Source of the DNA: Ptychodera flava
Lineage: Eukaryota; Hemichordata; Enteropneusta; Ptychoderidae
Length of the DNA: 64,000 nucleotides
Assembly: GCF_041260155.1 (NCBI RefSeq)
Contig: NC_091933.1
Location: 34,691,293 to 34,755,292, forward strand
Reading direction: 5' to 3'
In this document: one piece after another, positions 3,001 through 59,100 of the stretch
Numbering within the stretch: position 1 is the first letter of the stretch
How the letters are laid out: the number at the start of each line of letters is the position of its first letter
Made by a program: the position numbers and the translations under genes
Notes under the pieces: generated by a model
Told to the model about the DNA's origin: nothing
What the model saw: only the letters and a program-made list of their open reading frames with translations
Databases searched by the model: none

Positions 3001-3239
3001 CTTACATACATTGAACACACTGATCATCAGTTTTATTGTCAACTACACGACAAATTATTGCTTTATTCTAAAACATTATCTGCAACTGTACACTTTGTAT
3101 GTGGCTCTCACACCCCAACCCTCGGCCACCCCTGTCTTCCATGAAAACATGGTTCAGTCCTTTTTTAATCAATATTTCATGCCATCTCCAACAAAAACTT
3201 GCATCATGTTATTAAATTTAGATTTATTGTTGGTAAGGT
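1..3239. other. AT-rich non-coding DNA, no gene supported
   Basis: I see no exon with both a plausible splice site and recognisable protein. Short open frames on both strands lack coding character. The stretch is rich in TACATGTA-like words and short A/T runs. It is probably intron or upstream DNA of the gene whose last exon lies at 6821-7621, but that is inference. Confidence 0.5.
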
Positions 3240-12084: not shown

Positions 12085-12606
12085 TATAAAGTAAACTTTA
12101 TTGGAGTGGTTCGCCAAAGGCAGCCCTCCGGTTAAGAGGGTCATGGGCCATTACGTAAAGTCAACTTTATTCTAGTAAGCCACCAAAGGTGGCACGCCGG
12201 TAAAGAGGGTCGATCATGGCTATTGCATAAAGTAGACTTTACTGGACAGGGCCGCTGAAGGCGCGCGGCCATTACCATTATTCAGTGCGTGATCCCAGGG
12301 GTCCCTCAAAAATGTTTCTAATACAAGCCGCGGCTTCAATTGGGAATTTTACGGTAAGATTGCCATGGGGTATTACATAAGGTCAATTTATTGTAGTGGG
12401 CCGCCGCAGGCGGCCCGCCGGTAAAGAGGGTCAATCATGGGCATTGCATGAAGTAAACCTAATTGGAGTGGGCCGCCAAGGCGTCTGCCCGTTAAGAGGG
12501 TCATGGGTAATACATAATGTATATTTATTGTAGTGGGCCGCCGAAGGCGGCCCGCCGGTAAAGAGGGTCGATCATGGCCATGCCATAAAGTGAACTTTAT
12601 TGTTGG
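12085..12606. repeat. Imperfect 66-72-bp tandem array with GC-rich hairpins
   Basis: About six and a half units, each beginning near ATTRCATAAAGT and containing AAAGT-AACTTTA, then a palindrome such as GGGCCGCCGAAGGCGGCCC (12535-12553), then CCGGTAAAGAGGGTC. The third unit carries an insertion of about 80 bp (about 12270-12370). The palindromes differ between units but often keep their pairing, which suggests that the hairpin rather than the sequence may be retained. Confidence 0.8.
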
Positions 12607-18100: not shown

Positions 18101-21100
18101 GGACACCTACCGTAAATAAGGGCCTTTATGATGAGCGACCGATACCGTATCTGTACGACGGTAAGTTCTGTGATTTAATGCAGTGTACTGCTTCAGCGTC
18201 TATGAAAACAAATGAAAACGAAACCTGTATTAGGAGCATTACGTCACGCAGCAACTACGTCAGAAGAGTCAGCGAAGTGGCCGTAACGCAACAGGCTTGT
18301 GCCAACCAACTCAATGGACGACAACATTTTCGTAAAGTATCTGAATCTAGAGAAGCTGAGAGCGCAAAACGTGGATTTAAAATTTTGGATTTGTCCCTTT
18401 ATCGGACTAAGCCATTGTTTGTTGGACTAACATTGAGTTTCTTCTTCGTCGGCATTGGGTATAATGCCTCATTAGTATATTTGGTAAGCAGGGCTATGGA
18501 ATACGGAATATCACCTTCTGATGCCGCAGTTTTAGCTTCGGTTGTCGGTATATTCAACATCATCGGACAACTTGGGCATGCGTGGTTTGTACAGATGAAG
18601 TTTGTGACAGGATCGCAGGCCTATTACGGGTCCCTGGGTATCTGCGGTATCACGTCATTTCTAAGTGTATGGATGACGTCACACGTGACGTATGGTGTGT
18701 ACTGTGCCATTCTTGGACTGTGCAGTGGTGTTTTCATGACTGTTATTGTTGTTGTCTGTAAGGAGTACGTTGGTGAGGAGAAATTGTCGGATGCCATAGG
18801 TTTAGCGCTTCCACCTTACGGCGTTGGGAGTCTCATTGGACCGCCACTCTCAGGTAATGCCAACAAAATATCAACAAATGACAAGCACAGCTGAGAAAGT
18901 AAACGCGATGGAGACTATGACTAAAAGAGTTGTTATCACAATCATATATGATTCCGAGCATAAATCTGTATTCAAAATGATTAGAACCCGTTTTTCGAGT
19001 TGTGTCATCTACCAATTAGTTTGGCTCATTTTTTTCACTATATCCGTTCTCTCTAAAAAAGATGAAGATATGTGTGTACTAAGCTTCCCCGTCAGCACAT
19101 GGTATTATCTCAGAAAAAATTAAAGTCTGCCAGATTTTTTATGCTTTTGTATATGCTTTCGTATAATCAAATCTTGAATTTTGCGTTGCATTCATATTGT
19201 ATGGTCTGAAGACATTTTTCCTCTGGGAAAATTTGAGAAGAGCAACAAAACACATCTATTTAACTAGTATGTTCTTAAAGTCGGGTCGGAAGGTAGGGTT
19301 CCCATGCACCCCATGGATGTATTTTTTTAACCTACATTTTTGTAATCCTTAGGGTCTATATTTAATGAATTTTGATGTTCCCAAAATCAAATCGTGTCCC
19401 ATGGGGTTCATTTGGCGCCATCTTTGCCGCCATCTTTGCCGCCATCTTGGATTTCAACGATGGGGTAGGGGTCACGTATCTACCGCTCGACGGAAACAGA
19501 AACAATAAAATACTATAAACGTTACATTTTTAGAAAGCCAAGATCATGGCCTTTTCATTGATATATAACTTAATAGGGATCAATTAATATTCGAACGTCG
19601 ATTAGACTTTATATCGGTCATTGGCCGTAAATCGTAAAATTTGCTAAATTTCACACCCAATAATTAAGTTCCCGTTCCTCCAAACAATTTTTCATAAAGT
19701 ATTTATATATTTTTGGAAGAACTCAGTCCAATAAACAAGGAAAACAACATTAAAAGTATGTGTCTTGAGATTTAGTGGGTGTATGAGCTTGTTTTCTTAT
19801 TACGCGGTATGCCACATATCCGTGTGTAACATAAGGGGTAGGGGTAATGTTTCCCTTTCTGTTTCGAATCATGAATGATGAAACCATATAAATGTTACAT
19901 TTTTTGAAAGTGCTGCATCAGGCCTTTCTAAAAATATATAGATTTATGGGGAAAAGTTGCATAATTAAAAGTTACAAAGCTTAAACCTTTCGGTTTGTGT
20001 CGATTTTAAGTGATTTTTTAAGAACGAAATTACAACATATGGGGTAGGGGTAATGTTTCCCTTTCTGCCTCGAATCATGAATTACGAAACCATATAAATG
20101 TTACACTGTTTGAAAGCTCTGACATTGGCCTTTCCAAACATGTATAGTTTTATTGGGAAAAGTCCATATTTTAAAGTTACAAAGCTTATGCCTTTCAGTT
20201 TGTGTCAATTTTAAGTGATTTTTTAAGGACGAAATTACAACATATGGGGTAGGGGTAATGTTTCCCTTTCTCTCTCGAACCATGAATTACGAAACCATAT
20301 AAATGTTATACTGTTTAAAAGCTCTGACATTGGCCTTTCCAAACATGTATAGTTTTGTTGGGAAAAGTCCATATTTTAAAGTTACAAAGCTTAAACCTTT
20401 CGGTTTGTGTCAATTTTAAGTCATTTTTAAACAAAATTTTAATATAAGGGGTAGGGGTAATGTTTCCCGTTCTGCCTTGAACAATGAATTATGAAACCAT
20501 ATAAATGTTATACCGTTTGAAAGCTCTGAAATTGGCCTTTCCAAACATGTATAGTTGTATTGGGAAAAGTCCATATTTTAAAGTTACAAAGCTTATGCCT
20601 TTCAGTTTGTGTTAATTTTAAGTGATTTTTTAAACAAAATTATAATATAAGGGGTAGGGTAATATTTCCCGTTCTGCCTTGAACCATGAATTATGAAACC
20701 ATATAAATATTATACCGTTTGAAAGCTCTGAAATTGGCCTTTCCAAACATGTATAGTTTCATTGGAGAAAGTTGCATATTTGACAGTTACAAAGCTTAAG
20801 CCGTCCAGTTTGTGTCAATTTTAAGTGATTTTTTGAACAATATGCACAAAACAGTTAGTCTGTTGGCCAGGTATCGAAATCATCCCCTCTAAGGCATTTT
20901 ACCCACTATGATTTTTTGTTAGCTAGTATTCTCAGCTGTCATAATCTGCTTATTTTCCATTATCTGATGGTGTGTGAGAGTGTAACGACTTGTTTGTGAA
21001 GGGCTGTCACGCCCTCCGTAGTAAAATAGGAATGGGTTAGGGGTAACATATTTACCGCTAGTCGGAAACAAAAACAAAAAAGTACCATAAACAATACATT

Positions 21101-24100
21101 CTTAGAAAGCCCAGATATAAGCTTTTTCCTTTTTTGATAATTATTCGACTTTAGATGGCGCCGATATTCCGTATGTGCATGGCGGTCAGCAGCTGAATCA
21201 TTCACTTGACGAACGTTGATATGGCCTGAAACTTCGGTAAATTCATTCAAGCAAACTCTTGTTTGATTAAGTTGATAGTTTTCCTTTCTTTTTTATTTCG
21301 AGTATTTGCCATGGCATGACTGAAACGAACCTTGAAACGAAGGCTGTACGTATCTATATTAGTCCGAGCCTGAGCGTGATCTGAGAGCAAACAGATCCGC
21401 AGATAATGCGAACGATCGCAACCGTTACCAACAGACTCATTATGCAGAGCCATGCCCCAAAAACGCCCAACCATACTTGGCACTAATCATGATCCCAGTC
21501 CATTTCGAGCCGGGCTTTAAGGGAAGTGCAGTGGCCTTTGAAAGACCCTTTGGTTTGGTTTTGTACCGTAGTATAGGAAGAAAACCCGACCTGTCGTCGT
21601 TGCTGTGAATGTTTGTGTTGTTTTTAGCCTCTTTTTTCGCCTATTTGAAGAATCGTCTTTGCAGCCTTCCATCCTGCGTTCTGTGTAGCGAGTGTCTTCG
21701 ATCGCTCTCTTAAGTTTGTGATGTACAACTGTCTTGAGTCTCGGTGCTTTATTGGGTGTAGAGGTAAATAGTTAGAGATCAGGGTGATAAATTGGTTGCC
21801 GCAGTGTCTTTCCAGGTGTTGCCACTTTTGAAGGAATTCAACACTCGGTATTTTGGCCTGGTAAGTATTCTTTAAGGTGTACCTGTAGGCTAAGTGGTAC
21901 TGAATAGGGGGCACTTAGGTTTCAACACATTCGATACTCTTGGCTTTCGCTTATACCCCGTTGTATGAGTAACTGGGATCGGAAATGGGAAAGGCTTAAT
22001 TAATATCCATCTTTGCTAATATTAATTCTCGTTTGGCTTACAAATGGCCACCTCTACTTGTTTCGGTGAAAATTTGACTTTCAATTGGACAAAACATTGA
22101 ATATGACTTTCTTCTGTGTGTTATTTAGGCCTATGAAAAATATGAAAATTGCATTATATATTGTTGTCAAATATCTCAAATCTTAGATTGTAAGAGATAG
22201 GCTTAGGCTTCCCTGTAATCATACAAATGAGTTAAATGGGAATTTATTGGAGTAGATTACAGTAATCGAAGAGAATGGTTGACACTATAGAAAGACTTAT
22301 CTCGGATTGCGGGGGACCTAACTATAAAAGAACAGCACAGATACTTGCCGGATGTATTGACTGTTCATCTATAGTACAGGCTAGTACAACATGGAATGTA
22401 AAACATACAAATCAAAGAAGTGGCAAATTTTCTCAACTTTTCACAAAGTTTATATTCCATCATTACTATCAGGATTAGGATTTTCCAAATCTATAAATAA
22501 GCTATTACTTGATTACACCTTGATTCAGCATGACCAACATTTTGCATTTGCCACGCAACCAGCCATGCCCGTCCCTTGGATCGCGAACAATGCCTTTAAC
22601 GAAGCTTTTGAACGCTTTTTGTGAATTGTGTAAGAATGTCCTCTCTGTGGAGTATAATGTGTGAAGCCGTTGTCTAGCTCGCTTGACTCTGATGATTATG
22701 TTGACTTATTTTTTTCTCAGCTGCTGGTGGCTGATCTAGCTGGAAAGTTAGATCAATCTCGTCTCTCTGATTCGATCATGCTGGTGGGAATGGTATCTTC
22801 AAGCATTGACCCTAAAACGTCCGTTTGTAGGGTCTTTGCTTCAAAGACGTCAGGGTCTAACATTGGTTAAATGTCATCCATGATAAGAAACTAATGATAG
22901 ATTCACTCACAAGGCATTTTAAACATTGAGGTGTCAATGGGAATATAAGCCTTTTTAGTCATTTTCTGAGGTTTGTCTCGCCTTCTTATTGCTTGGTGTA
23001 GAGAGTGTTTGTTCGCCTTCTGTTTACTATTTAGTTGCGTAATTTGAATGCGTTCTGTGACATTTGGCTTTTCGGGTTTTAGTTCCAGAATTATTTTGCT
23101 ATTGAATTTTAGTACCTAGTCGAAAATGTAATCCTCATTGTGAGTATATAGTGTTCTGCGTTGTAAAATAATTTCGAAAAATTGGTTATGATCTCTTGTT
23201 TTCTGGTAAGGAAGGTAAAGTGTTGTCGATCCATCTTATCTTATTATGGAGAAGCTATATTGTGGATTAATGGTGATTGGTTTTCAGCGATAAAAGATTC
23301 TCTCGTATTCCCGTGTGGTATTAAAAATAACACTATTAATAGTGAGCTCTGATTTGCCCAGACGGTCACGTGACTGTGCATGTATTTACGATATACTGTA
23401 AAGTTGGCCATTCCTATCTCCAAAGTGGGTTTCTTTCACATTGTTTGTATTTTCATCACAAGTTTCAATATACTGATATAATATAGCGATAAACATCCCC
23501 TATAAGTTGGGTACACCACTCGAGCTCGGTTTTGACCATTTCACTCCTTATACACACGATTGAAGTTCGTGCGTATATGTTGTTTACCGGTCGAAACCGT
23601 GTGGTATCCTTTCAAAGTGGTGCTTTATTGCTTATATATCTCTCGCGATACAATTAAAGAAAAGGGATTGATTGTTGCTGCTGTCATATCAACTTTGCAT
23701 GGCGACTATGACATCCAATTTAGTGTTTGTGGGTTTGGAATATATAATTTTTGACATATTATAGCTGTTAACTTTCTTTCCCTAATTTGAGTTATTGAAA
23801 TGAGTAAAACGTCTTTTATTAACCACCATTGTAGCTTTTTAGTGCTATTCAATGCCTATAGAGTATTTTTCTATGTTCCTTTTAACAAGTAAATGTCAGT
23901 AAAGTAACACAAACTTTTGAGTTTAGGCATTGTCACTGCATAATTTTTGAGTTTACCCCATCAAGCCATATCTTGTTGGAAAAACAACTGCGTTAGTGTT
24001 TCAGAGATATGATATTTATGTGGCTTCCTTATTCGCTGCGTTTGGTAGGAGAGGAAACATTACCCATACCCCTATCCCTTAAATGTATATTATAGAGGGA

Positions 24101-27100
24101 TGTACGGCATACCATATATTAGGTAAACAATCGACGCACCCCATAAGTCCCAAGAAGATACACTCTTTTAATGTTTTTTACTTCTCTATTGCATTAAGTT
24201 CTTTCAAATGATATATAATACCTCGTAAAAATTGTTTGGAGGAACATGAACTTAATTATTGGGTTTGAAATTAAGCAAATTTTACAATTTACATTTCATG
24301 TCCGATATAAAATCTAATCAATTTTTGAATATCGATTTATCCCCATTTAGTTGTATACCAATGGTAAGGATATTATCTGGGCTTTCTAAGAATGTATTGT
24401 TTATGGTACTTTTTTGTTTTTGTTTCCGACTAGCGGTAAATATGTTACCCCTAACCCATTCCTATTTTACTACTGAGGGCGTGACAGCCCTTCACAAACA
24501 AGTCGTTACACTCTCACACACCATCAGTTAAATGGAAAATAAGCAGATTATGACAGCTGAGAATACTAGCTAACAAAAAAATCATAGTGGGTAAAATGCC
24601 TTAGAGGGGATGATTTCGATACCTGGCCAACAGACTAACTGTTTTGTGCATATTGTTCAAAAAATCACTTAAAATTGACACAAACTGGACGGCTTAAGCT
24701 TTGTAACTTTCAAATATGCAACTTTCTCCAATGAAACTATACATGTTTGGAAAGGCCAATTTCAGAGCTTTCAAACGGTATAATATTTATATGGTTTCAT
24801 AATTCATGGTTCAAGGCAGAACGGGAAACATTACCCCTACCCCTTATATTATAATTTTGTTTAAAAAATCACCTAAAATTGACACAAACTGAAAGGCATA
24901 AGCTTTGTAACTTTAAAATATGGACTTTTCCTGATAAGACTATACATATTTGGAAAGGCCCATTTCAGAGCTTTCAAACAGTATAACATTTATATGGTTT
25001 CATAATTCATAATTCGAGGCAGAAAGGGAAACATTACCCCTACCCTATATGTTGTAATTTCGTTCTTAAAATGACTTAAAATTGACACAAACTGAAAGGT
25101 TTAAGCTTTGTAACTTTAAAATATGGACTTTTCCCAATAAACTATACATGATTGGAAAGTGCCAATGTCAGAGCTTTCAAACAGTATTACATTTATATGG
25201 TTTCATAATTCATGGTTCGAGACAGAAAGGGAAACATTACCCCTACCCAATATGTTGTAATTTCGTTCTTAAAAAATCACTTAAAATTGACACAAACTGA
25301 AAGGCATAAGCTTTGTAACTTTAAAATATGGACTTTTCCTAATAAAAATATACATGATTGGAAAGGCCCATTTCAGAGCTTTCAAACAGTATAACATTTA
25401 TATGGTTTCATAATTCATAATTCGAGGCAGAAAGGGAAACATTACCCCTATCCCATATGTTGTAATTTCGTTCTTACAAATGACTTAAAATTGACACAAA
25501 CTGAAAGGTTTAAGCTTTGTAACTTTAAAATATGGACTTTTCCCACTAAAACTATACATGTTTGGAAAGGCCAATGTCAGAGCTTTCAAACAGTATTTCA
25601 TTTATATGGTTTCATAATTCATGATCCGAGGCAGAAAGGGAAACATTACCCCTACCCAATATGTTGTAATTTCGTTCTTAAAAAATCACTTAAAATTGAC
25701 ACAAGCTGAAAGGCATAAGCTTTGTAAGTTTAAAATATGGACTTTTCCCAATAAAACTATACATGATTTGAAAGGCCAATGTCAGAGCTTTCAAACAGTG
25801 TAACATTTATATGGTTTCGTAATTCATGATTCGAGACAGAAAGGGAAACATTACCCCTACCCCATATGTTGTAATTTCGTTCTTAAAAAATCACTTAAAA
25901 TCGACACAAACCGAAAGGTTTAAGCTTTGTAACTTTTAATTATGCAACTTTTCCCCATAAATCTATATATTTTTAGAAAGGTCTGATGCAGCACTTTCAA
26001 AAAATGTAACATTTATATGGTTTTATCATTCATGATTCGAAACAGAATGGGAAACATTACCCCTACCCCTTATGTTACACACGGATATGTGGCATACCGC
26101 GTAATAAGAAAACAAGCTCATGCACCCACTAAATCTCAAGACACATACTTTTAATGTTGTTTTTCTTGTTTATTGGACTGAGTTCTTCCAAAAAATATAT
26201 AAATACCTTATGAAAAATTGTTTGGAGGAACGGGAACTTAATTATTGGGTGTGAAATTTAGCAAATTTTACGATTTACGGCCAATGGCCGATATAAAGTC
26301 TAATCGACGTTCGAATATAAATTAATCCCTATTAAGTTATATATCAATGAAAAGGCCATGATCTTGGCTTTCTAAAAATGTAACGTTTATAGTATTTTAT
26401 TGTTTCTGTTTCCGTCGAGCGGTAGATACGTGACCCCTACCCCATCGTTGAAATCCAAGATGGCGGCCAAGATGGCGGCAAAGATGGCGCCAAATGAACC
26501 CCATGGGACACGATTTGATTTTGGGAACATCAAAATTCATTAAATATAGACCCTAAGGATTACAAAAATGTAGGTTAAAAAAATACATCCATGGGGTGCA
26601 TGGGAACCCTACCTTCCGACTAGACTAACTAGTATGTTCTTAAATTCATGTTAACTTTACATTTCACTGTAATTGCACCCTCTTTGTTCAGTGCCATTGA
26701 GCATTTGTATCGGCTTTCGGTGCACTGCAATGTGACTGACTTCTGGGATGTGTCGAAAATTACAACCGCTCTTCTTGATCTTGCCTTCCTTGTGTATAAC
26801 ACTTTCCGCGTCTGACTTACAGGTGCTCTAATGTCACAAAACTATCACCAGCGATTATGCTGGGACAACGAATGGAGCTATATATGGAAAGATCATTGGA
26901 TAATCGGCGTTTCTAAAATTGAAACGTTTCGGATTTTTCCGAGCCCGATTAATTAATAATTAATTAATTATTTTTACAGGGTGGTTGTTTGACAGTTTTG
27001 GAAGTCACGACGGGCCAAACTACCTGTGCTCAGCCACCTTTCTGATGGCCTCTATGTGTGTCCTTATGGAACTGTTTACTTGTCGCTCCGCGTGCCATAG

Positions 27101-27260
27101 TCGTGGCAATGATCCGTCAGAGGAACAAAACGCCAACACAGAGATTGAGTCAACGAATTACATCGATAAGGAAGACGGAGATAAGGACAAGGAGGCGGAT
27201 TTCATTTATGTAAACTCTGCATATCTAAACGATCAAAATATGCAAGAAACAGAACTGTAA
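15139..27260 (+). CDS. SLC16 / monocarboxylate-transporter-like MFS protein, complete, 4 exons
   Basis: Predicted 659-residue major-facilitator protein of the MCT (SLC16) family, probably in the plasma membrane, carrying monocarboxylates or related solutes; the substrate cannot be told. Exons: 15139-15376, 16344-16487, 17537-18853, 26980-27260. All three introns are GT-AG and phase 1. The N half (residues about 24-205) has six hydrophobic segments. A long polar loop follows (about 208-418), then a second hydrophobic half and an acidic C-terminal tail. The SLC16 TM5 signature is clear: YFNERFVLANAVAFTGTSAG, matching the family pattern YFxxRxxLAxxxAxxGxxxG. The usual TM1 DGGWGW-type motif is degenerate here (PSGIVWKW), so the protein is not a close MCT1 orthologue. 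The exon 3-4 join gives PPLSG/WLFDS, as in the family. The ATG at 15139 is followed by a second ATG six codons later; the first was chosen. Intron 3 (8.1 kb) is almost filled by a foldback transposon. Confidence 0.9.
17151..17507 (+). mobile_element. TTAA-type MITE, copy 4, next to an exon acceptor
   Basis: Begins TTGAGGTAGTACGCACCTCT and ends near ATTCTACCTGA, matching the inverted termini of the other copies but with decayed TTAA flanks. It contains the TTGAAATTCAAAATGGCTGC block. The body lies in intron 2 of the transporter, and its right end is only about 30 bases before the splice acceptor at 17535-17536. Confidence 0.85.
19261..19279 (+). repeat. Left 19-bp flanking direct repeat (target-site duplication) of foldback element 1
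   Basis: TAACTAGTATGTTCTTAAA, identical to 26626-26644. It lies immediately outside the left terminal inverted repeat. Confidence 0.9.
19280..21118 (+). repeat. Left inverted arm of foldback element 1
   Basis: Pairs with the right arm. Order from the tip: terminal repeat; CCATCTTTGCCGCCATCTTG block (about 19430-19450); a G-rich GGGGTAGGGGT at 19465; a unique-looking 350-bp block; five tandem units (GGGGTAGGGGTA words beginning about 19835, 20041, 20246, 20448, 20651); then a short block with CTGTTGGCCAGGTATCG and an inner GGGTTAGGGGTAACATATTT near 21031. Confidence 0.88.
19835..20860 (+). repeat. ~204-bp tandem units in the left arm (5 units)
   Basis: Spacing between successive GGGGTAGGGGTA words is 202-206 bp. 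Each unit carries AAACCATATAAATGTTA, then TTTGAAAGCTCTGA, TTGGCCTTTCCAAACATGTA and AAAGTTACAAAGCTTA in the same order. Units differ from one another by point changes, so the array is not newly made. Confidence 0.9.
21119..24364. other. Interior of foldback element 1; no recognised gene
   Basis: Contains a minus-strand open frame 21624-21914 (96 aa, with KWQHLERHCGNQFITLI) and plus-strand frames 22275-22478, 22391-22624 (with KVYIPSLLSGLGFSKSINK) and 22661-22870. None resembles a family I know and none has transposase signatures. The 22275 and 22391 frames overlap in different phases, so a broken or intron-containing gene is possible. The last 300 bases (about 24060-24360) are a degenerate copy of the outer right arm (about 26060-26390) in the same orientation. 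Confidence 0.5.
24365..26625 (-). repeat. Right inverted arm of foldback element 1
   Basis: Reverse complement of the left arm with the same order of blocks, but longer (2.26 kb against 1.84 kb) because it has more tandem units. The inner edge, around TATCTGGGCTTTCTAAGAAT (about 24370-24390), pairs with the left arm near 21095-21118. Confidence 0.88.
24833..26070 (-). repeat. ~204-bp tandem units in the right arm (7 units)
   Basis: The ACCCCTACCCC-type words recur at about 24833, 25035, 25239, 25443, 25648, 25853 and 26059, a spacing of 202-206 bp. Alternate units look most alike (for example the stretches around 25035-25239 and 25443-25648), which suggests expansion of a two-unit block of about 410 bp. 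Confidence 0.88.
26626..26644 (+). repeat. Right 19-bp flanking direct repeat of foldback element 1
   Basis: Identical to 19261-19279. The pair defines the element boundaries. Confidence 0.9.
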
Positions 27261-28050
27261 TGGAGTTTACTTGAAACAAAACCGATCCGAAAATTGCATT
27301 CTTTCAAGATTCCTATTTTACTTTTTACTTTGTTAGGCTTACCGCGTTTGTGTTCTAAGACACTGAATTCCTGAACGAGAAAACGCGTGACTTGGCTATG
27401 AAAGAACGCTTCTGGTGTCACCTTCCATCCAGCGCTTTGAATCCAAAAGGAATCACTTCTGATGGATGATGACTCTATGAAATCCAGTTCGATTTTCGAG
27501 ATATGTACCGGGGAAGAAAGCAAAATTTAGATAGTTTCTTACTTGTTACCGTGAGTCATTGAGGAGGACTGTGTATTGCCTCTACAACAACTAACTCGCC
27601 ATGAAGCGAGTGACAAATTTATATATAGTCTCATGTATTGTGAAGGATGTTATCCTTGCCCTTACAACGACTAACTTGCCAAGAAGTGAATGAACTATCG
27701 CAGTGCTTATTTGAATATCTGGCCTATCATGTCGTGTTACTGTCCTCCAGTAAGGCTCTATTCCACGCCCCACCCTCTTACTTTGATATTGATTCGTCTG
27801 ATTTGCACCAATTTAGGATGTCCATATTGAGAGTCGATACCACACAAACTTTCAACGAAAATTGGGTTTATTCACAAAATAAGTCTCATATATCCCACAT
27901 ATTTGTATTCATTTTATTTTGGAAATGCTTCGTTGTTTTATTGGACATATTTCCAGTGTTCTATTGTTATTCAGTCTTTTAGAGAACGCTTATGCAAATT
28001 TCAATATGATGAAATTTGGAGCCTACATTACCCTTCAGAAATAGAATGTA

Positions 28051-28118
28051 CAACAACAACAACAGCAACGGCGACATCAACAACAACAACAAAAACAACA
28101 CAACATCGACATCAACAA
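28051..28118 (+). repeat. Imperfect (CAA)n tract
   Basis: Runs of CAACAACAACAACAG and related triplets in the presumed 3' UTR of the transporter gene. Confidence 0.9.
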
Positions 28119-28305
28119 TTAAATTATTATTCTTTATCTTATTGAGAAAAAAACTCCAGTTTTGTTTATGTTTACTGTTGAATTTGTCCTAACTTGCAAA
28201 CGTGTCACGTAATGTTGAACTTGTAATTTGTGGTAAGAGAAATTTGCGGAAGAAGTAGACTTGTCTGAAATCTCCAGGTTATATCACGGATGAGACTGTA
28301 ATGTT

Positions 28306-28311
28306 AATAAA
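28306..28311 (+). promoter_or_regulatory. Candidate poly(A) signal AATAAA of the SLC16-like gene
   Basis: Canonical hexamer about 1.05 kb after the stop codon, followed by a GTGAGGTG-type stretch. No closer, better-placed signal was noticed, but this was not an exhaustive search. Confidence 0.4.
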
Positions 28312-30289
28312 GTGAGGTGATAAATTTCATGGAAATCTGCGCGCGAGTCGAGCTGATCGAATTAACACAGGCGAGCGACGCACGGCCAAGAAAATTGAGA
28401 CATGTACAGGTGAGCGCTAACGAAGAAGGAAATGGAGAAAAAAGAAACCTGTTTGTAAATATAGCTGGCCAAAAAGATGGATTCAGTTCAGTATTGTTTT
28501 TGATATGTAAACAAGGACTAAACGATAGCCCTGAGGCATTAGCCTCACCTCTGTTCACATTGTCGTCATCAAACAAATCACATCGTGTCTGAACCTATTT
28601 CTAAAAATGTCAGTATATTTGGTGGTATGGATAAATGGCACCTACGAAATATCATGGCACAATTATTTGCGACCAAGTCAGCTAACGCTGTATCTCAGCA
28701 AGACACGGGAGTTTAAAATCTATGTCAAATATGAATTGAAAAACGATACGATGTGATCATCATGATGATTTGGGGCCAAAACGAAGCTGTTACGATGTTG
28801 TGGTTTTGCAATGGGCAATTCTTTGTGCGTTTTGAAAACGCATGAAAAGTCAAAGGCATGACGCTGTAAGCTCTTCCTGTGATATAGAGCCTAGCCGGAT
28901 GACCTCAGACGCAGCTCTGCTGCTGACAGTATCACTGATTTTATAAAGAGATGTTCTCAGTGGAATGGCATAAGTAAGGGCAAGGACGGTTGTAGGAAGA
29001 TGGAGGGCGTTATCACACATGAGGGGCCGCCAGGACTGCACATCCTTCTTCAAAATTCACGAACTTGCAAAGGCATATTGCAAATAAAAACGCAAGACGA
29101 TTTTAGAAACTTCGAACTTGTAAGGTAGCATCAATACTTCTCAATTTTCAAAAGTTCACTATGAATCACGTCCGTTTCAAAACTTTAAGTCATTGCCAGT
29201 TTCTAAAGTGACATAGAATCAAACTTCAGAAATTAAAAAGGTGCGTCTGGAAAATTACGTTGTTCAAAAGCAGGAAATTAACAAGTGCACTTCAGATATT
29301 TCATATTGTATGTTTTATATTTCCTCACAGGCGGCTTAATCAAATTCGGCCATTGGTAGCTAGAGGAGAGAGTATAACGCATACGCAAGGCAAATGATGC
29401 AAGAACTTACACACAGTTAGAACGGTCGTCCCAATCTCTTGATCTCATAGTTATAGTTATTGTGTGCATGGATCTAGTTTATTTGCTTAAAAGCAATCCC
29501 CTTTTTATTTACTCGAAAAGTTTTCGGGCTTCTGAATTGTTTTAATTTAATTTTTTATCAAAGATAAAATAGGCCTATTAAGGTGATGTCAATTTAAACC
29601 GCGGCGCCTTCATTAAAATCGCACGAGTAAAATGTAAAACCAAATCAATAAACAAGGACGAATGACTGACTGACCAGTCCATTTGTGGGATTCAGGTATG
29701 GGTACGTTTTGGGTACGTTTCACGACCTTTGAACAATATGAGAACCTAATAGGTAAAAAAATAAAGACAAATTGTTTAAAAGTTTCAATCGATAGTTATA
29801 TGTAATTGTTACTGTTTTTCTCATATATTGCAAAATACTATTGACAAAAATTATGAATATTATGAAAATAAATTATAATCGATGTTTGGACGTCACTTTA
29901 CCAACCTCCCAATGCCCTCAGCCTTTCTTCTGGTTGAGTTCCCTCTTATATTTAGATTGTGTAAAGATCTCAAAAACATGAAATTTTCTCTATAAAGTTT
30001 TATTTGGTAAGTGAATGATCCCAACACCTCAGTGTTTCTTTGTAAGAGTTATCTCATAAGAGTTTCTAAGGTCAGTGTTTGGAACAAAGACTTCTGCTTC
30101 AACACTGCAAAATGTTGTCTGTCAGTAGTAGCAGACGCATGTAGCGCCCTCTTTGGCGAATAGGCGGCTAATATTTGGGGTCAATCTGGGTCATTACACT
30201 GTCACTCGTGATTTGAACGGAAGCCAGAAGCGAAGGAGGGTCACCTGAAATCAGCTGATTTCTGTAACCTAATTCCCACATGTTTCAAA

Positions 30290-33200: not shown

Positions 33201-33343
33201 TGGACTCGTACCACGATTCCTAATTAACAGACGTTTGCATGGATGTGGCTAAGAAGTTTGTGCACTGGCATCTCTGCTACACGAATAAAGTGCGCCGCGT
33301 ACCGTGCGGGTAAATTTGACATATGTGTTTTGGTTATTTTCAT

Positions 33344-33378
<35 letters not shown>

Positions 33379-47218: not shown

Positions 47219-48784
47219 CATCCCCAATGAAATGGAACTTGTTTCTTCAAATGATGCTCTTCATACAGTGGTTTCTTGTTCATATACACAATATCATGAT
47301 CAGCAAGTGTAAAGCTAGCTATAAGAGATGACTATTTTCAGAACCAATTTACTATTCTTGTCAAGTAAAGAAATTTGGATTTGGTGTTCTAGATAATGTT
47401 ACAAATATGGCACAAAAAAGGTAAAAAACTGTGACTTTTCAAGGATAAAATACTTTGCCCTCAGTGCAGATTATGGTGTATTCATTCATTCCAAAGGCTA
47501 AGGTTGTCAAATTTTTAGATTTTGAATAGTTGACTAAAGGTCACCAACTTTTCAAAACTTGAAGGTGACAATCAGAAAACATGTTTTGGTTTCAACAAAA
47601 AAATGTAAATATGGCTAAAGATCTTGGTGATTAAAATTATTTGTGGCATTCTGAAGATAGTGACTGTACCATAGACTTATATCTTGGTGAGAGAAAGTCT
47701 GAAGCATGGATGATAGCAATAACACATCATTTGCAATAGGAATCGTTTGTATGTCTTAGCATTTATATATCCAACAAATCCATTAAAGTATACAAAAATT
47801 GAAATTTGTGTTCATGTAAAAAAAAAGGCAAAATGAGAAACGTCTAAGGAATGTCAATGTCGTATGTTCAACAAAATCAAAGCAATATGGAGTAGTTGCT
47901 AAGCAACAGCTACCATGTGATGAATGACATAAATGCAGGATATGTCCTCTTTGCTGATTGGGTAATGTGTTCTGAATAGTGTTCCAAAGAATGACAAGTC
48001 AGATGGGAATGAGCTTGCATTTTGCATCAACAGAATTGTATTTCTACAGTAGACCTTTTCCAGTTATCCCACAATGCATTGCTGATTTTGTTAGGCACAA
48101 TAGATTGTTATACAACTGACACAAATCTGCAATGCTGAAAAATGCCTCTTGTAATTTGTATTCATCAACGATGAAAATGTAGGTCAGGATTTAACTTGCC
48201 ACAGTGTTCTATGAGTAACTTACCCTACGGCTAAAAAGTCCTATGAATAACGTATACTTTGTGTACACTAGTATGCACTGTGTCATGGAACTGGTAAAAG
48301 AACTACTGTTGACAGTAACGACAGTTCAGCAGAATGCCATGACAAACATAAATTGACCTTTCTGAACAAAGGGTGCTTGATGAAACTTTCAAAATTTAAA
48401 TCACCTATGAACAAGTTAAGTTCACATTTTTCACTCTAAAGAGCAGTATCAGGGCACATTATCTTGCTATTTTTGTCACATTTAGTCAGATAAAATCTGA
48501 CCAACTGCAGTCATCCAATGTACTCTGTAATCATAAACAGTTTGTTACTAAATAAAACTTATGTTTTCAACAAACCTCAATGCAGGACATGTGAAAGTAC
48601 ATCTTGTTAGGTAAATACACTACAGATTGTTATATATTTTGATATGTAAATATTGCAGACTTGGTAAAATATCTTCACTCAAATGCAGCTTTCATTCGCT
48701 TACAAGACTTGATTCACTTGTTTCCCTAGTGAGTAGAAACCTCTAGTGAGTAGAAACATGCCAAATCCAGAGAAAGGTGATCGG
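47219..48784. other. Tail-to-tail intergenic interval between AMT and the SSUH2-like gene
   Basis: Holds the 3' UTRs of both genes, which converge here. Candidate AMT poly(A) signals are ATTAAA at 47782-47787 and AATAAA at 48551-48556. I see no further gene. For the minus-strand gene I did not find a clear signal immediately after its stop. Confidence 0.5.
48551..48556 (+). promoter_or_regulatory. Candidate poly(A) signal AATAAA of AMT
   Basis: Canonical hexamer about 1.3 kb after the AMT stop and about 230 bases before the stop of the opposing gene. The earlier ATTAAA at 47782 is an alternative. Confidence 0.35.
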
Positions 48785-50075
48785 CTATAAAACAGAACAC
48801 CCCAAGCAATTCTGTTGTGGATAGTCTGGTGCATAGACGCATCTCTCATTGCCATACACCCAAAAGTAATAATGTTTCTCCTTCCATTGATATATGCACT
48901 GTGTCACTGGCACTGCATGCAGTCCATGGCGCTATTTAAAAAATAAACAAAAAAAGTTGAATCAGTCCTACAGAAATCAGAATCTCATCTGCAACACACT
49001 GTTCTATACCGTGAACCATGATTTTGTTTTCTGAAAATACTATCAACTGTGGTATGTCTATCACTATGCAGCTGAACATTCCTAATCTACAAAATTTCCA
49101 GTCATTAACTTGTTTTGACTGATGTTGTTCAGTTAGATACCATATAGAGCATATCCATAGTCCATTTAGGTATGTCCAGTGACACATCCAGTGTACACAA
49201 CTGGTATGGATATTAAGGTAATATGTGCCTCGAAAGTGACAGACTTAAACTTTTGCTCAAACTTTCCTCAATGAAACTTTTCACAATTCTCTTACCAAAG
49301 CAAGAATATAAATCTGGGATCACCGTGCAAAATTTGGTACACTGGAGAGACAAATTACCTAAGATTTCCCGATATTTGAAATTTACAATGGCCGCTATCC
49401 CTGTGTTAACCCTATGGGGAAAAATTAAATTTTCGATTTTTGAAAAACTAAGCCGCTAAATTTTTTCTTTCGCCAAGAGCTTTAAAATGAACCGCACAAG
49501 TGGTGGATCAGGAGAGAATTGACAAAATTTGAAAGCCTGAATTTTTTTTCCAAGAGGAAATCTTAATTACACTGCATATGTGTGTATAGAAGAGGTTTTA
49601 GACCTCTAGCAAAGACATGGGCTCGTACCTGTTGAAGTTTTTTTATGCCAGAGTAAGCTTGACGATGTTCGTCGACCAGTCTAGCTGATTGATATACAAT
49701 CTCTTGGACTGGGTAGTTGGACACAGGTTCTATACTGACTGCAGTCTGCTCAAACACCTTAGCACCACTAACATCTCGCAGCAATTCTTTTGGGACACCA
49801 GTCTTTTCGATGATGTGATCACTTTTGTGATTTATGCTGCAAAACACAGAGTCTGTTAGTGATCCTTGGTTGAGAGAGAAAAATGTCCGCGGGATAACTA
49901 GCTTCTTAAACATGGAAGCATGACCCTTGACTTATCAAAAGATACAATAGAAGTTGAATTTTAGGTTGCAAATTATGAATCTGAGGGTATAATTCAAAGT
50001 CTTAAACTAGGACAAGAATTTTGTTTTAAGACTATGACTATTTCTACATTAATAATTTGTAGATACAGTGAATAT

Positions 50076-50144
<69 letters not shown>

Positions 50145-53100
50145 TTTATTGTTTGTTTATGTGTAGACAATGAAACTGCCTAAGTGTAACTCCTAGAATA
50201 ACCAGGGAAATGTTTGCCTATTTATCTATGATATGAATAACAATAATCTTCCACTCTCTGGTCAATAGTTCAAGAAGTTAATCCAAGTGTTTCCTGATGA
50301 TGTTCCGACTTCTGTTAAATATGATGTCTGACATTGTGACACGAGTACTTACAAGTTCACTGTCAGCATTAAGAAGTGTTTCAAATTACGTTGACCTCTG
50401 CATGTCCTGCAAGTGATACGCCCGTCACCACCACATGTATCACACCTACAGATAAAACATTCGTATGCTGATTTGAATCTTTCAGAGAGAAGGAGATTGC
50501 AATCTCGTGTATGGTTATGTTTCTAAACTTTGATAGCCATTCAATACATCACATGGCAAATCCGTGCATTGAAATAACCACCGATTGTCATGGCATGGCT
50601 GATGTGAAGATGGTGTAAAAAGTTAGTCTCTTACACTGTACGTGTGCTACAGCTGATAACCTGCCATAGCTACAGTAACTTTGGTTCGGATTGTTTTTCC
50701 TAAAACCATGATATCTTCATAAAATACACTGTGAAAGTCGTCAAACAGGTATGTTCTTGAAATTGTTGGTCTTACCACGAACTCCGTTTCAAACTATTAA
50801 ATATGAGTGGAATGATGTGTGTTTTTATTGAGTAATTGATTAGATAAAGCCGTGGAAACAGCTGATTATTCCAAGACAAACCGGAAATACTCTTCAAAAT
50901 TCTAAAACTAATTGTCGTGACGTCTGACCCTAATTCTCTGAAATTGCTCAAACCATTTTAAGATTAGTTAACGGAACTGTTTATTCTCTTACTTTCCTTT
51001 TGTTTCTTCAGTAATAAATGTATTCATATGAGAAAGCGACCAACCTTCGTTTACCTACTCCCATGCACTGAGAACAACTTTCCTGCACTCGCTGTCCTTC
51101 AGGGTTGGTTCGTGACACACGACCACTGCCGCTACACGATGAGCATGGCACACGGCCGTCGCCATGACAACGATGGCATTTATTGAAGCCCATGCCGTTG
51201 CAATCATGACAAGGCTGGAACAAAATATAATACATTCCATTTGTCCGTTATCGTTCTGTTTCATCAGCAGATACGACTTCTGCAGCTGACGACTTTTCCG
51301 GCTGAATTTATACGTGTTAGAAACAGTTTTTTTTTGTATATTCACAAGTTTGTACGGTGAGCTAAAAACGTCAGCCATACTGTATGTATCCATGTCTTTC
51401 TATAACTGGTTACCAAACATTATGTGTCATTGCAAGATACAGTATGTCCGTCCTATTCAAGACTTTTTGTGAAAGAAGTACATGGATCACGTAGTAGTAA
51501 TAACCTTTAAGTGACAAGTTTAACTGGAGAAATACTGACAAAAGTATCACTCCTTCTAAATACCTCCAGAATAATTGGATATAACTGAACAGTTTTAGAG
51601 TGATTCAGTATTTCAGATCTAAACTCTTCAGCAGTTTGAGATTTGATGAAATCGCGCGCAAGGCCTTTTCAAACAGCGACATGGGATATATACCGTAGAA
51701 TTGATATTGTTTTCTTTTGTGTAAAAGGCCTCTTATAGTCCGTGGGCTGGAGGGGCCCACCGTGCACCCCCCCCCCCCACATCCCTACTACTTGGGTATT
51801 TTTTTGTTCTTTAGGACCTGCTGAACAAGAAAAAAGATGTTAACATTGGATATTTTGGGATGCACTACCTATCTCGGCTGGTTTTTGATTTGCATGTACC
51901 GCAAAAAATGGCGAAAAATGGGTAGGGGTAGGGGTACTATATCCTCCCCTACATTGAGTAAACTAGCATGAAATAACACAAACCATACATTTTGGAAAGC
52001 TGAGATTCTGCTCTTTATGAGAAACACCAACTTTAGCAAAATTAATTTGTGTACATAGAATAGGACGACTTTAAAATGAATGTTTTTGACAATTTTGAAT
52101 TTTTTTACCCAAAATACCATGTAACAATTGTGATTTACTTGTTATTAAGCAAAATTTTGACAGCTTTTTGTGTTTGAATTATTTATTCCCACATATTAAA
52201 CAAGAAAAAAAGTGTTAACATTAGATATTTAACTATACACTACTTCTCTGAGTCAATTTTGAATTGCGTGTATCTGTATGGGGTGTGCAAAAGCTAGGGG
52301 TAGGGGTACAACATTCTTTCCTTGATGAAGTAAAATGGCTTGAAATGCCATATACCTTATAGTTTTAGAAAGCTTAGATACTGGTCTTTCTAAAATGCAT
52401 AAAGTTTTAGTAAAAAAATATGACGTCATAGAATTGGATAACTTTAAATCGATTTTTCTGGTAATTCAGTATTTTTAACCGGAAGAAAATACGATAACTA
52501 TTGTTTCTCCTTATGAAGAACAAATCAAACACATTTATGGATGTTATTTACTAATTGCAATGTGCTGAGAAGAAAATAAATATCAAAATTGGGTATTTAC
52601 CATGCATTATTGTCTCTAGTCACTAAAATAGCAAGTTTTGCTACATTGTTATATCGTGAATGGGCATTTTATTGTTATGCAATGAACTAATGTACAGCCT
52701 TAAAAAGAAGACTCGAAAACGTGCACACATAGTCATATTGCCATTTTCTCCTTCAAGTAAAAAGATTATTGACGACTGTCTATTGTTATAATTTAATTTT
52801 TAAATATTTTTCTATAAAATAATTTTGTTAAGGCGTATTTGGAAAATTGTCTATGCCTCCTAGCCTTACTTTATATACAGCAAGCATTACTAACAATCTA
52901 TTAGGCCGAGGCTAGAGGGGGCGTCTACGTGCACCTCCCCCCTCACCCCACAGGATAACAAACCTGTAACTTTCAGAAGCCTTGGGATCCCTAGAATACG
53001 AAATGGGATTTTAACAGACAAAATATAGGGACTCAATAGCTGTTACGGTCATGTTTTGAAGGGTACCACAAAATCACGATTTTGTGACCCACGTGGATTT

Positions 53101-56100
53101 TTGTCAAACCTGTCTTCTTGTACGTAATCTGCTGAGCTTACTGTTTAACATGACCTAGGTTATGGGGTATCATTAGAAAGATGATTTATTCTTCTTGAAA
53201 ATGGTATATAGCAATATGCAATATCTTCTATAGTTTAAATGAAATAGGGCCATAATTTACCCCATACCCCAAAGTTTTATGTCACAAATTGCTGTCAAAA
53301 CTAATCTAAATTCCACCAATTACTTACCTGTACATAATACAGAAGGCAATACTGTGTATTAACTTTGTGTTATTTGCTACAGGTACAAGTAGAAACTTGG
53401 AATAAACTTTTAACAGAAAAAATATTGGGATCCTGTAGCTGTAACAGTCATATTTTGAAGGGTACCGAAAAATAACAGTATTACTGACTCGCATTAGTTT
53501 TTGTTAAACCTGTCTTCTTGTAAGTCTTATGCTGAGCTTATTTTGAAAATAACGAGACCAATGGGGTACCATTAGTAAGTTAATTTACTCTTCTTTAAAA
53601 TGATATGTTGCAATATGCAATATCTTCTATAGTTTTCATGAAATAAGATCAAAACTTACCCCATACTCCAACGTTTTATGTCGAAATTACCATCAAAACT
53701 AATCTCAAATTCTACCAATTATTTTCATAGACACATTACAAAAGGCAATTCTTTGTATAAAATATATTTTATTTGGTACAGGGACATGTCAAAAATATGA
53801 GTTAGACTTTTAAGAGACAAAATATTGGTATTGAATGACTGTTACTGGCATGTTTTAAAGGGTACTGTGAAGTCAGAGTATTACCGACTCGCATATGTTT
53901 TTGTTAAATGTGTCGTCTTGTAAGTTTTCTGCTGAGCTTACTTTTTACCATAGCCTAGATTATGGGCTGCCATTGGAAAGACAATTTATTTGGCTTTAAA
54001 ATGACATATTGTAATATACAATATCTTCTATAGTTTTTATGAAATAGGACCAAACCTTACCCCATACCCCAAAGTTTTATGTTGTATATTACTGTCAAAA
54101 CTAGCATTTAATTTCGATAAATTCTATAAAAAAGACAAACTTTGTATGAAACCTTTTTTATTTGTTACAGAGACATTTCCAACTATGAAAGATACCATTA
54201 ACAGGATAATTATTGTGATTTAATAGCTGTTAGCATCATAGTTTGAAGGATAGCAGGATACATGTATATGTTGCTGAAACCCGTGAAATTTTATTAAACA
54301 AGTTTCCAAGACATTTATCTGCCAACCTTTATTTTATCCGTAACGCAGATTGTAGGGTATCATTATAAAGCTTTTATCACTTTTTACCCCATACCCCAGA
54401 GTTTTATGTTGTATATTACTGTCAAAACTAGCATTTAATTTCGATAAATCTATAAAAAAAAAGACAAACTTTGTATGAAACCTTTTTATTTGTTACAGAG
54501 ACATTTCCAACTATGAAAGATACCATTAACAGGATAATTATTGTGATTTAATAGCTGTTAGCATCATAGTTTGAAGGATAGCAGGATACATGTATATGTT
54601 GCTGAAACCCGTGAAATTTTATTAAACAAGTTTCCAAGACATTTATCAGCCAACCTTTATTTTATCCGTAACGCAGATTGTAGGGTATCATTATAAAGCT
54701 TTTATCACTTTTTATTTTAGCATATGATAAAGTGCATTATCATCTGAAGTTGTAATGAAATGGCAAAAAACTTTCCCCATCCCTTACTTTTATTTGCAAA
54801 CTACATCTGTTCGAAAACTTTGCAGTTTGCGAATTTGGGATATGGGGTAAGTCTGGTCCTATTTCATGAAAACTATTAAAGATATTTCATATTACAATAT
54901 GTCACTTTAAGGCAAAATAAATTTTCTTTCCAATGATGGCCTATAAGATAGGTAAGAGTAAAAAGTAAGCTCAGCAGATGACTTACAAGATGACACATTT
55001 AACAAAAACACATACGAGTGGGCAAGACTGAGACTTTACAGTACCCTTCAAAACATGACAGCAACAACAATCATTCCCAATATTTTGTCTGTTAAAAGTC
55101 TATCTAATATTTGTAACATGTCTCTGTAGCAAATAAAACAGATTTCATACAAATCATTGCCTTTTGTAGTATGTCTAGGTAAACGTTTGGTAGAATTTGA
55201 GATTAGTAGTGATAGTAATTTGCAATATAAACTTAGGGGTGTGGGGTAAGTTTTGGTCTTATTTCCTTAAAACTTAAGAAGATATTGTATATTACAATAT
55301 GTCATATGAAAGAAGAAAACAATACCTTTCGAACGATACCTCAATAGCCGGGTTATGTTAAAAAATAGGCTCAGCAGATGACTTATAATACGACAGGTTT
55401 AACCAAACGTATGCGAGTTGGCAATACTGTGAGTTTGTGGTACCCTTCAAAATATGACTGTTACAGCTACAGCATCACAATATTTTTTCTGTTAAAAGTT
55501 CGTTTCAAGTTTCTAACATGAACCTAAAGCAAATATACTAAATTTAATACAAATCATTGCCCTTTATATTATGACCCGGTCAATAGTTGTCAGAATTTGA
55601 GATTTGTTTTGACGGTAATTTGGAATATAAAACTTTGGGGTATGGGGTAAGTTGTGGTCCTATTTCATGAAAACTATAAAAGATATTGCATATTGCAATA
55701 TATTATTTCAAAGAAGAGTAAATTACCTATCGAATGATGCCCAACTTGCTACATTATGTTAAAAAGTAAGCTCAGTAGAAGACTTACAAGAAGACAGGTT
55801 GAACAAAAATGTATGCGAGTTGGCAGTACTGTGATTTTGCAGTACCATTCAAAATATGACTGTTACAGCTACAGCATCTGGATATTTTTCTGTTAAAAGT
55901 TTATTTCAAGTTTCTAACCTTTACCTGTATCAAATAAAACAAATTTGATATAAAGCATTGCCCTTTGTATAATGTCTAGGAAGATAATTGGTAGAATTTA
56001 GGATTAGTTTTGACAGTAATTTGTGACAAAAAACTGTGGGTTATGGGGTAAGGTTTGGTCCTATTTCATAAAACTATAGAAGATATTGTATAGATATTGT

Positions 56101-59100
56101 ATATTACAATATGTCATTTAAAGCCAAATAAATTGTCTTTCCAATGGCAGCCCATAATCTAGGCTATGGTAAAAAGTAAGCTCAGCAGAAAACTTACAAG
56201 ACGACACATTTAACAAAAACACATGCGAGTCGGTAATACTCTGACTTCACAGTACCCTTCAAAACATGCCAGTAACAGTCATTCAATACCAATATTTTGT
56301 CTCTTAAAAGTCTAACTCATATTTTTGACATGTCCCTGTACCAAATAAAATATATTTTATACAAAGAATTGCCTTTTGTAATGTGTCTAGGAAAATAATT
56401 GGTAGAATTTGAGATTAGTTTTGATGGTAATTTGCGACATAAAACGTTGGAGTATGGGGTAAGTTTTGATCTTATTTCATGAAAACTATAGAAGATATTG
56501 CATATTGCAACATATCATTTTAAAGAAGAGTAAATTAACTTTCTAATGGTACCCATTGGCCTCGTTATTTTCAAAATAAGCTCAGCATAAGACTTACAAG
56601 AAGACAGGTTTAACAAAAACTAATGCGAGTCAGTAATACTGTTATTTTTCGGTACCCTTCAAAATATGACTGTTACAGCTACAGGATCCCAATATTTTTT
56701 CTGTTAAAAGTTTATTCCAAGTTTCTACTTGTACCTGTAGCAAATAACACAAAGTTAATACACAGTATTGCCTTCTGTATTATGTACAGGTAAATAATTG
56801 GTGGAATTTAGATTAGTTTTGACAGCAATTTGTGACATAAAACTTTGGGGTATGGGGTAAATTATGGCCCTATTTCATTTAAACTATAGAAGATATTGCA
56901 TATTGCTATATACCATTTTCAAGAAGAATAAATCACCTTTCTAATGATACCCCATAACCTAGGTCATGTTAAACAGTAAGCTCAGCAGATTACGTACAAG
57001 AAGACAGGTTTGACAAAAATCCACGTGGGTCACAAAATCGTGATTTTGTGGTACCCTTCAAAACATGACCGTAACAGCTATTGGGTCCCTATATTTTGTC
57101 TGTTAAAATCCCATTTCTTATTCTAGGGATCCCAAGGCTTCTGAAAATTACAGGTTTGTTATCCTGTGGGGTGAGGGGGGTGAGGTGCACGTAGACGCCC
57201 CCTCTAGCCTCGGCCTAATAGATTATTAGTAATGCTTGCTGTATATAAAGTAAGACAGGGAGGCATAGACAATTTTTCCAAATACGCCTTAACAAAATTA
57301 TTTATAGAAAAATATTTAAAAATTAAATTATAACAATAGACAGTCGTCAATAATCTATTTACTTGAAGGAGAAAATGGCAATATGACTATGTGTGCACGT
57401 TTTCGAGTCTTCTTTTTAAGGCTGTGCATTAGTTCATTGCATAACAATAAAATGCCAATTCACGATATACCAATGTAGCAAAACTTGCTATTTTAGTGAC
57501 TAGGGACAATAATGCATGGTAAATACCAAATTTTGATATTTATTTTCTTCTTCAGCACATTGCAATTAGTAAATAACATCCATAAATGTGTTTGATTTGC
57601 TTCATAAGGAGGAAACAATAGTTATCGTATTTTCTTCCGGTTAAAAATACTGAATTACCAGAAAAAAATCGATTTAAAGTTATCCAATTCTATGACGTCA
57701 TATTTTTTCACTAAAACTTTATGCATTTTAAAAAGACCAGTATCTAAGCTTTCTAAAACTATAAGGTATATGGCATTTCAAGCCAGTTTACTTCATCAAG
57801 GAAAGAATGTTGTACCCCTACCCCTAGCTTTTGCACACCCCATACAGATACACGCAATTCAAAATTGACTCAAGAGAAGTAGTGTATAGTTAAATATCTA
57901 ATGTTAACACTTTTTTTCTTGTTTAATATGTGGGAATAAATAATTCAAACACAAAAAGCTGTCAAAATTTTGCTTAATAACAAGTAAATCACAATTGTTA
58001 CATGGTATTTTGGGTAAAAAAATTCAAAATTGTCAAAAAAATTCATTTTAAAGTCGTCCTATTCTATGTACACAAATTAATTTTGCTAAAGTTGGTGTTT
58101 CTCATAAAGAGCAGAATCTCAGCTTTCCAAAATGTATGGTTTGTGTTATTTCATGCTAGTTTACTCAATGTAGGGGAGGATATAGTACCCCCTACCCCTA
58201 CCCATTTTTCGCCATTTTTTGCGGTACATGCAAATCAAAAACCAGCCCAGATAGGTAGTGCATCCCAAAATATCCAATGTTAACATCTTTTTTCTTGTTC
58301 AGCAGGTCCTAAAGAACAAAAAAATACCCAAGAAGTAGGGATGTGGGGGGGGGGTGCACGGTGGGCCCCTCCAGCCCACGGACTATTAGCAGAATGAAAT
58401 AAGTACTGTTTGTTTTTAACTACACATTTTGATGTATTTTTCAGGAAATATTTACCGATACGGATGCTGTATGCGGCACCTCAATGTTCCTGGCTTCGCT
58501 ATAAAAGAGAGCTCTTGGAGAACATGGTATCTCCCACTTTGATGGCGGTGTACCGTTCGTTGGTCCGTCTACAGGGTCATAGCCGTTGTATGGTTCCCAG
58601 GTCATGCCTGTGGACCTAGATTCTGTGTAAGTCTCCAGTATGTACTGATAATGGAAGGAACATAGGGCGTTTCATTGCAATATACAACTAAATTTAAAAA
58701 CGGATGTCTTCACGTCATCCAGTTTATATACCATACCATCTTGTCAGTATCAGAAATATTCATGATCTGATCGTCAACTTCTAAAAACGATATTCGTAGA
58801 TTTTTAATTAATATATATAAAGAATATAGAATTTACCGATATAATTAAATTCATTTTATAATAAATCCAATAGAGTTACTAAAAGAAGATTGTGACGGGG
58901 ATATGGTTCAAACAAGCGATTCAGTTCAGCGCAAACGAAAGAATAATCCAGAGTGAGGCTAAGTGATGTTGAGCCATAAACTTTGAATTTTCTGTCAACG
59001 TTAAGAGTTTCTTTCGTTTCTACAATTGTCAAAAATAGCTTTTCCTATGAAAATCGGTGTCTTCTTTCAGTTCTACTATATCCCTCACATAAACTTAGTT

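Follow-up and report, generated by a model that had tools for sequence, protein, structure and literature searches.

Closest described systems

Foldback elements of this general design have already been described in flies and plants. In Tetris, a foldback element of Drosophila virilis, a 37-bp stretch (~80%) is common to the ~220-bp tandem repeats of the arms and the domain that flanks them on the outside, and no autonomous copy was found (PMC4079207). Galileo, a P-superfamily element of Drosophila, has terminal inverted repeats (TIRs) of 0.5-1.2 kb with tandem repeats, and the THAP domain of its transposase has binding sites both ~70 bp from the terminus and within two of four repeats (PMC3688188). 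Here, we compare these systems with two elements in a 64-kb stretch of the hemichordate Ptychodera flava genome (the window), Element 1 (E1) and Element 2 (E2), which share a module at matching positions in their inverted arms (Table 1). Within-species tests were confined to this window.

Like Tetris, E1 and E2 combine long TIRs with a non-coding middle and with arm repeats that share a stretch with the flanking domain. Tetris differs in its 8-10 bp target duplications and its insect host, the comparison being one of descriptions only, and the available part of its account mentions neither a colinear second family at a distance like that between E1 and E2 nor nested tips (PMC4079207). Galileo also has long TIRs with tandem repeats, and its sites recur in the arm repeats; however, its transposase and the binding of that enzyme are known, whereas the site in E1 and E2 is putative and proposed by analogy. 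The multi-TIR Mutator-like elements (MULEs) of plants similarly carry a second TIR copy within the first on both sides, but they make 9-11 bp duplications and their nested TIRs are close tandem copies, unlike the diverged inner and outer tips found here (PMC3310237). Tm1, a Mutator/Foldback element of root-knot nematodes, resembles E1 and E2 in its composite TIRs with distinct domains, its tandem motifs, and its non-autonomous members, but has ~14-bp repeats, mostly 9-bp duplications, and known transposase-coding members (PMC3169594). Among the matches listed in the literature on P. flava and hemichordate transposons, no title names a hemichordate foldback element, and the family may still have been described; in the available text of the P. 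flava genome paper, the terms "foldback" and "inverted repeat" are both absent (PMC11175523).

A module shared by two foldback elements

The left and right outer arms are identical at 547/556 positions in E1 (98.4%) and at 1139/1154 positions in E2 (98.7%), which bears out the two foldback elements proposed in an earlier first-pass annotation of this stretch. As counted there, E1 contains twelve 204-bp units, five on the left and seven on the right, and the sequence words cited for the shared module lie at 19835 onward in E1 and at 52297 in E2. The module common to both elements comprises ~105-115 bp, in which a GGGGTAGGGGTA box is followed, after ~50 bp, by an imperfect TTTGAAAG...CTTTCCAAA palindrome, its parts being a pair of GGGGTA boxes, an A/T-rich spacer, and the imperfect palindrome. 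Each E2 arm carries two modules (51925 and 52297 on the left), and E1 has modules beyond its 204-bp arrays at 19462/26443 as well as inner ones at 21034, 24457, and 24072. A 12-bp tandem repeat, TTTGCCGCCATC with its complement, adjoins module 1 in both E1 arms (19411-19448 and 26455-26493).

With E1 masked, a profile of the twelve E1 units placed the outer modules of E2 as its top four matches in the window (52297+, E = 2.8e-6; 57824-, 1.6e-5; 51925+, 5e-5; 58198-, 9.6e-4), the fifth match outside E1 having an E-value of 0.61; the claim that both elements contain the module is thus upheld. A profile built without the box still detected E2 module 2 in both arms (52347+, E = 3.1e-4; 57773-, 3.4e-3) and missed E2 module 1 (51925/58198), where it found a match on the opposite strand only (E = 1.1). 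In pairwise comparisons without the box, 0/300 shuffles were as good as the match between E1 module 1 and E2 module 1, a likeness beyond chance, while the matches of two 204-bp units to E2 module 1 were equalled by 12/300 and 21/300 shuffles. A profile of the final ~80 bp of the 204-bp unit gave nothing under E = 0.89 outside E1 and therefore confines the shared part to the length given above. The box-and-palindrome pattern occurred at one locus in a viral contig and at nine bacterial or archaeal loci, all ten of which we took as chance occurrences because no E-value against the module profiles falls below 0.66; three further patterns had 0 matches each in viral contigs.

E1 and E2 are colinear. 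Module 1 lies 183 bp from the tip in E1 and 188 bp in E2, and module 2 follows module 1 at a distance of 373 and 372 bp, respectively. The tips themselves look related, with one control borderline. In an ungapped comparison, 19/34 positions are identical (2/5000 mononucleotide shuffles as high), and a gapped comparison was reached by 0/2000 shuffles; both statistics are favorable because the anchor was picked after viewing the sequences. In a 41-bp gapped comparison against dinucleotide shuffles, 26/500 reach the score. The first-pass annotation had read the tips as different and had offered the module either as a functional unit or as a sign of distant relatedness; the relatedness stands, the two options are not alternatives, and E1 and E2 resemble each other more closely than first read.

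Table 1. Positions of the elements, tips, modules, and repeats in the window.
Feature	Position	Strand	Basis or remark
E1, intronic foldback element (in an MCT12-like gene)	19280..26625	none	inverted arms and flanking exons
E1 tip, AGTC-N22-TGCACCCC, left	19279..19312	+	first A doubles as last base of 19-bp repeat
E1 tip, right	26593..26626	-	first A (- strand) doubles as first base of 19-bp repeat
19-bp exact direct repeat TAACTAGTATGTTCTTAAA at E1 ends, left and right copies	19261..19279, 26626..26644	+	
E1 module 1, left	19462..19567	+	profile, pairwise comparison
E1 module 1, right	26338..26443	-	profile, pairwise comparison
E1 left array, five 204-bp units, module-first	19828..20840	+	boxes 19835, 20041, 20246, 20448, 20651
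E1 right array, seven 204-bp units	24659..26076	-	boxes 26069, 25863, 25658, 25454, 25249, 25046, 24843
E1b, inner element with AGTC tips	20857..24636	none	tips, tip-to-module distances, likeness to E1
E1b module 1, left	21034..21139	+	profile, pairwise comparison
E1b module 1, right	24352..24457	-	profile, pairwise comparison
E1b module 2, right only	23967..24072	-	profile, pairwise comparison
E2, foldback element	51736..58385	none	inverted arms
E2 tip, AGTC-N22-TGCACCCC, left	51737..51770	+	tip comparison
E2 tip, right	58351..58384	-	tip comparison
Outer E2 arm, two tandem ~372-bp units, one module each	51820..52563	+	
E2 module 1, left	51925..52030	+	profile, pairwise comparison
E2 module 1, right	58093..58198	-	profile, pairwise comparison
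E2 module 2, left (outer module of the first-pass annotation)	52297..52402	+	profile, pairwise comparison
E2 module 2, right	57719..57824	-	profile, pairwise comparison
E2b, inner element with related tip AGGCCGAGG...TGCACCTC	52903..57216	none	tip comparison
E2 left array, ~400-bp units, box GGGGTATGGGGTA outward	53009..54103	-	only box shared above chance
E2 right array, ~400-bp units, box outward	54834..57108	+	only box shared above chance

Possible role of the module

We consider it fairly probable that E1 and E2, as distant relatives, are non-autonomous foldback (long-TIR) DNA transposons in which the module is a putative transposase-binding site amplified in the arms. The shared module at matching arm positions suggests that they are distant cousins that use the same kind of enzyme. 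For the module itself, a transposase-binding array, as the first-pass annotation had put forward, is the most likely role, to which its position, its repetition, and the analogy with Galileo point. Within the box, TAGGGGTA fits a degenerate THAP consensus and is too short to count.

The palindrome analysis covered all of the 21 modules except 26443 and 24843, leaving 19. A helix with one bulge attains 85.3% standard pairing across cells, against 80.1 (sd 1.4) in shuffles (0/500 as high), and its covariation score of 0.211 was reached by 0/500 shuffles and exceeds that of slid versions (at most 0.122), figures to be read in light of a structure drawn from the same sequences and of a relatedness that inflates the covariation score. 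One pair of the helix mostly switches between G-C (8) and T-A (7).

An outer arm of this type would read tip, ~185 bp, module 1, ~373 bp, module 2. With a transposase supplied in trans, several modules across both arms would be occupied, and the bound enzyme would then join the two ends and cleave at the tips. The module may later have been multiplied by tandem duplication, with a period of 204 bp in E1 and one of 372 bp in E2, and copying between the arms would keep them near-identical and incorporate the inner element.

Several observations weigh against this reading. The evidence comes from only two loci in one window, and their flanks (19 bp; TTA or none) misfit a single integration chemistry. 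The palindrome helix gives no signal without its bulge, and in the bulged form, pairs changed on both sides are not in excess (386/500 shuffles reach the count). Between E1 and E1b, conservation in 40-bp windows is no higher in the module than in the linker (75-82% identity in module 1, 66-90% in the linker, and 60-67% in module 2), and units A and B of E2 are only slightly more conserved in the module (65-76%) than elsewhere (54-72%); preferential conservation of the module is therefore visible between E1 and E2, and not clearly within each. Common descent by itself, with E1 and E2 as old relatives and the module as their surviving recognizable part without a function of its own, is in our view a rather unlikely alternative.

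That the module is bound by a host protein, or is a promoter or replication element exploited by the transposons, appears improbable. A box with a palindrome suits many DNA-binding proteins, and the present data do not separate a host-protein site from a transposase site; however, the paired position next to the tips in both arms is what end recognition needs, and the window contains no Rfam match at gathering cut-offs. Convergence of A/T-rich low-complexity repeats around a G-rich word, already disfavored, would fit the large contribution of the box to several scores and the 400-bp units that match through the box alone, but the in-register box-free matches, the shuffle tests, and the equal spacing make it highly implausible.

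Returning to the module as a putative transposase site, the same module and spacing in two diverged elements with different periods of re-amplification offer a test case for the role of long repetitive transposon arms, and the inner tips offer another for the origin of nested arms. If the module is such a site, the model of multi-site end recognition drawn from Galileo would apply to a deuterostome as well as to flies. More speculatively, and with considerable doubt, these elements may represent a hemichordate foldback family that uses spaced ~110-bp modules (tip, +185, +373, array) for putative end recognition, in which selection keeps module and spacing and not the tip alone, nested shells grow by arm copying around an inner element, and insertion may leave a target duplication of up to 19 bp.

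The 400-bp units of E2

A word related to the module had been taken to mark the 400-bp units of E2, and their length had been likened to twice 204 bp. The box indeed marks these units (53009-57108) and points outward in them, in the reverse orientation to the outer-arm modules of E2. With the box, one 400-bp unit scores 14.2 bits against a profile of 21 modules (shuffle maximum 7.8, n = 200), whereas the box-free score is 3.8 bits and shuffles reach 6.8. With the reciprocal profile, the score is 4.5 bits, against up to 6.3 in 100 shuffles, and 3.1 bits when box-free (shuffles reach 8.0). When three of the nine units were compared with four modules (12 pairs), the best pair was equalled by 1/300 shuffles with the box and 2/300 without it, and most of the remaining pairs by far more. 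The three top box-free matches to the 21-module profile sit in register with the box, which we did not count as proof because the units copy one another. Apart from the box that both contain, we rejected the reading of these units as diverged modules. The proposed relation to 204 bp found no support, the outer E2 unit being ~372 bp long.

Inner elements and probable arm copying

Each element encloses an inner one, E1b and E2b. In E1b, module 1 lies 177-180 bp from the tip on both sides, the range reflecting the choice of tip start; module 2 is found on the right side only, 385 bp past module 1, and the left arm keeps just module 1. The tips of E1 and E1b are identical at 19/34 positions (0/5000 shuffles as high), and 296/368 positions are shared from module 1 to module 2, whereas the stretch from tip to module 1 shows no likeness (Z = -0.8). 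The E2b tip matches the outer E2 tip at 15/34 ungapped positions (205/5000 shuffles; gapped, 0/2000) and the E1-type tips at chance level (E1, 1092/5000 shuffles; E1b, 1456/5000).

In both E1 and E2, the inverted arms extend across the inner tips on both sides, which suggests that, after nesting, one side served as the template for the other. In agreement with such copying, 204-bp units of the same rank are 98.5% (L1-R1), 97.0% (L2-R2), and 99.0% (L5-R7) identical; L3 and L4 are without a comparable right-hand partner. Two 328-bp copies in the middle of E2 (54057-54714), 97% alike, are a recent duplication.

Possible target duplications and coding content

The 19-bp repeat at the ends of E1 is possibly a target duplication, unusually long for a DNA transposon; if TTAGTC is taken as the tip, it could be as short as 12 bp (range 12-19). 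E2 is flanked by at most TTA on each side (51733-51735 and 58386-58388; by eye), possibly a short target duplication. The data on mobility consist of the E1 repeat and just TTA at E2, for two related elements in one window. MULEs have target duplications of 9-11 bp (PMC3310237), a length that neither E1 (12-19 bp) nor E2 (at most 3 bp) shows, and the TTAA duplication of Kolobok (PMC9587614) is absent from the both-side flanks of E1 and of E2.

E1 occupies most of one intron of a monocarboxylate transporter 12 (MCT12)-like gene, because the coding matches of the P. flava protein, which span 15139-27257, end at 18855 and resume at 26973; the protein from frame 17533-18855 is 100% identical to the P. 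flava MCT12-like protein. Only one stop-to-stop frame of at least 110 amino acids (aa) lies within the two elements; it is 110 aa long and belongs to E1. From the E1 middle, which contains 17 frames of at least 55 aa, none of the 10 frames tested reaches the curated Pfam cut-off, and two of the ten give weak sub-threshold matches (E-values of 0.049 or higher); five frames of at least 65 aa are listed for E2. In structure, the elements thus belong to the foldback (long-TIR) class, with long inverted arms, tandem repeats, and a middle without genes of its own (10/17 E1-middle frames tested).

Other features of the window

Elsewhere in the window, a broken retroelement with reverse transcriptase fragments across two overlapping frames lies at 3169-4271, and a 66-72 bp repeat that contains a GGGCCGCCGAAGGCGGCCC palindrome occurs in about three copies at 12368-12603.
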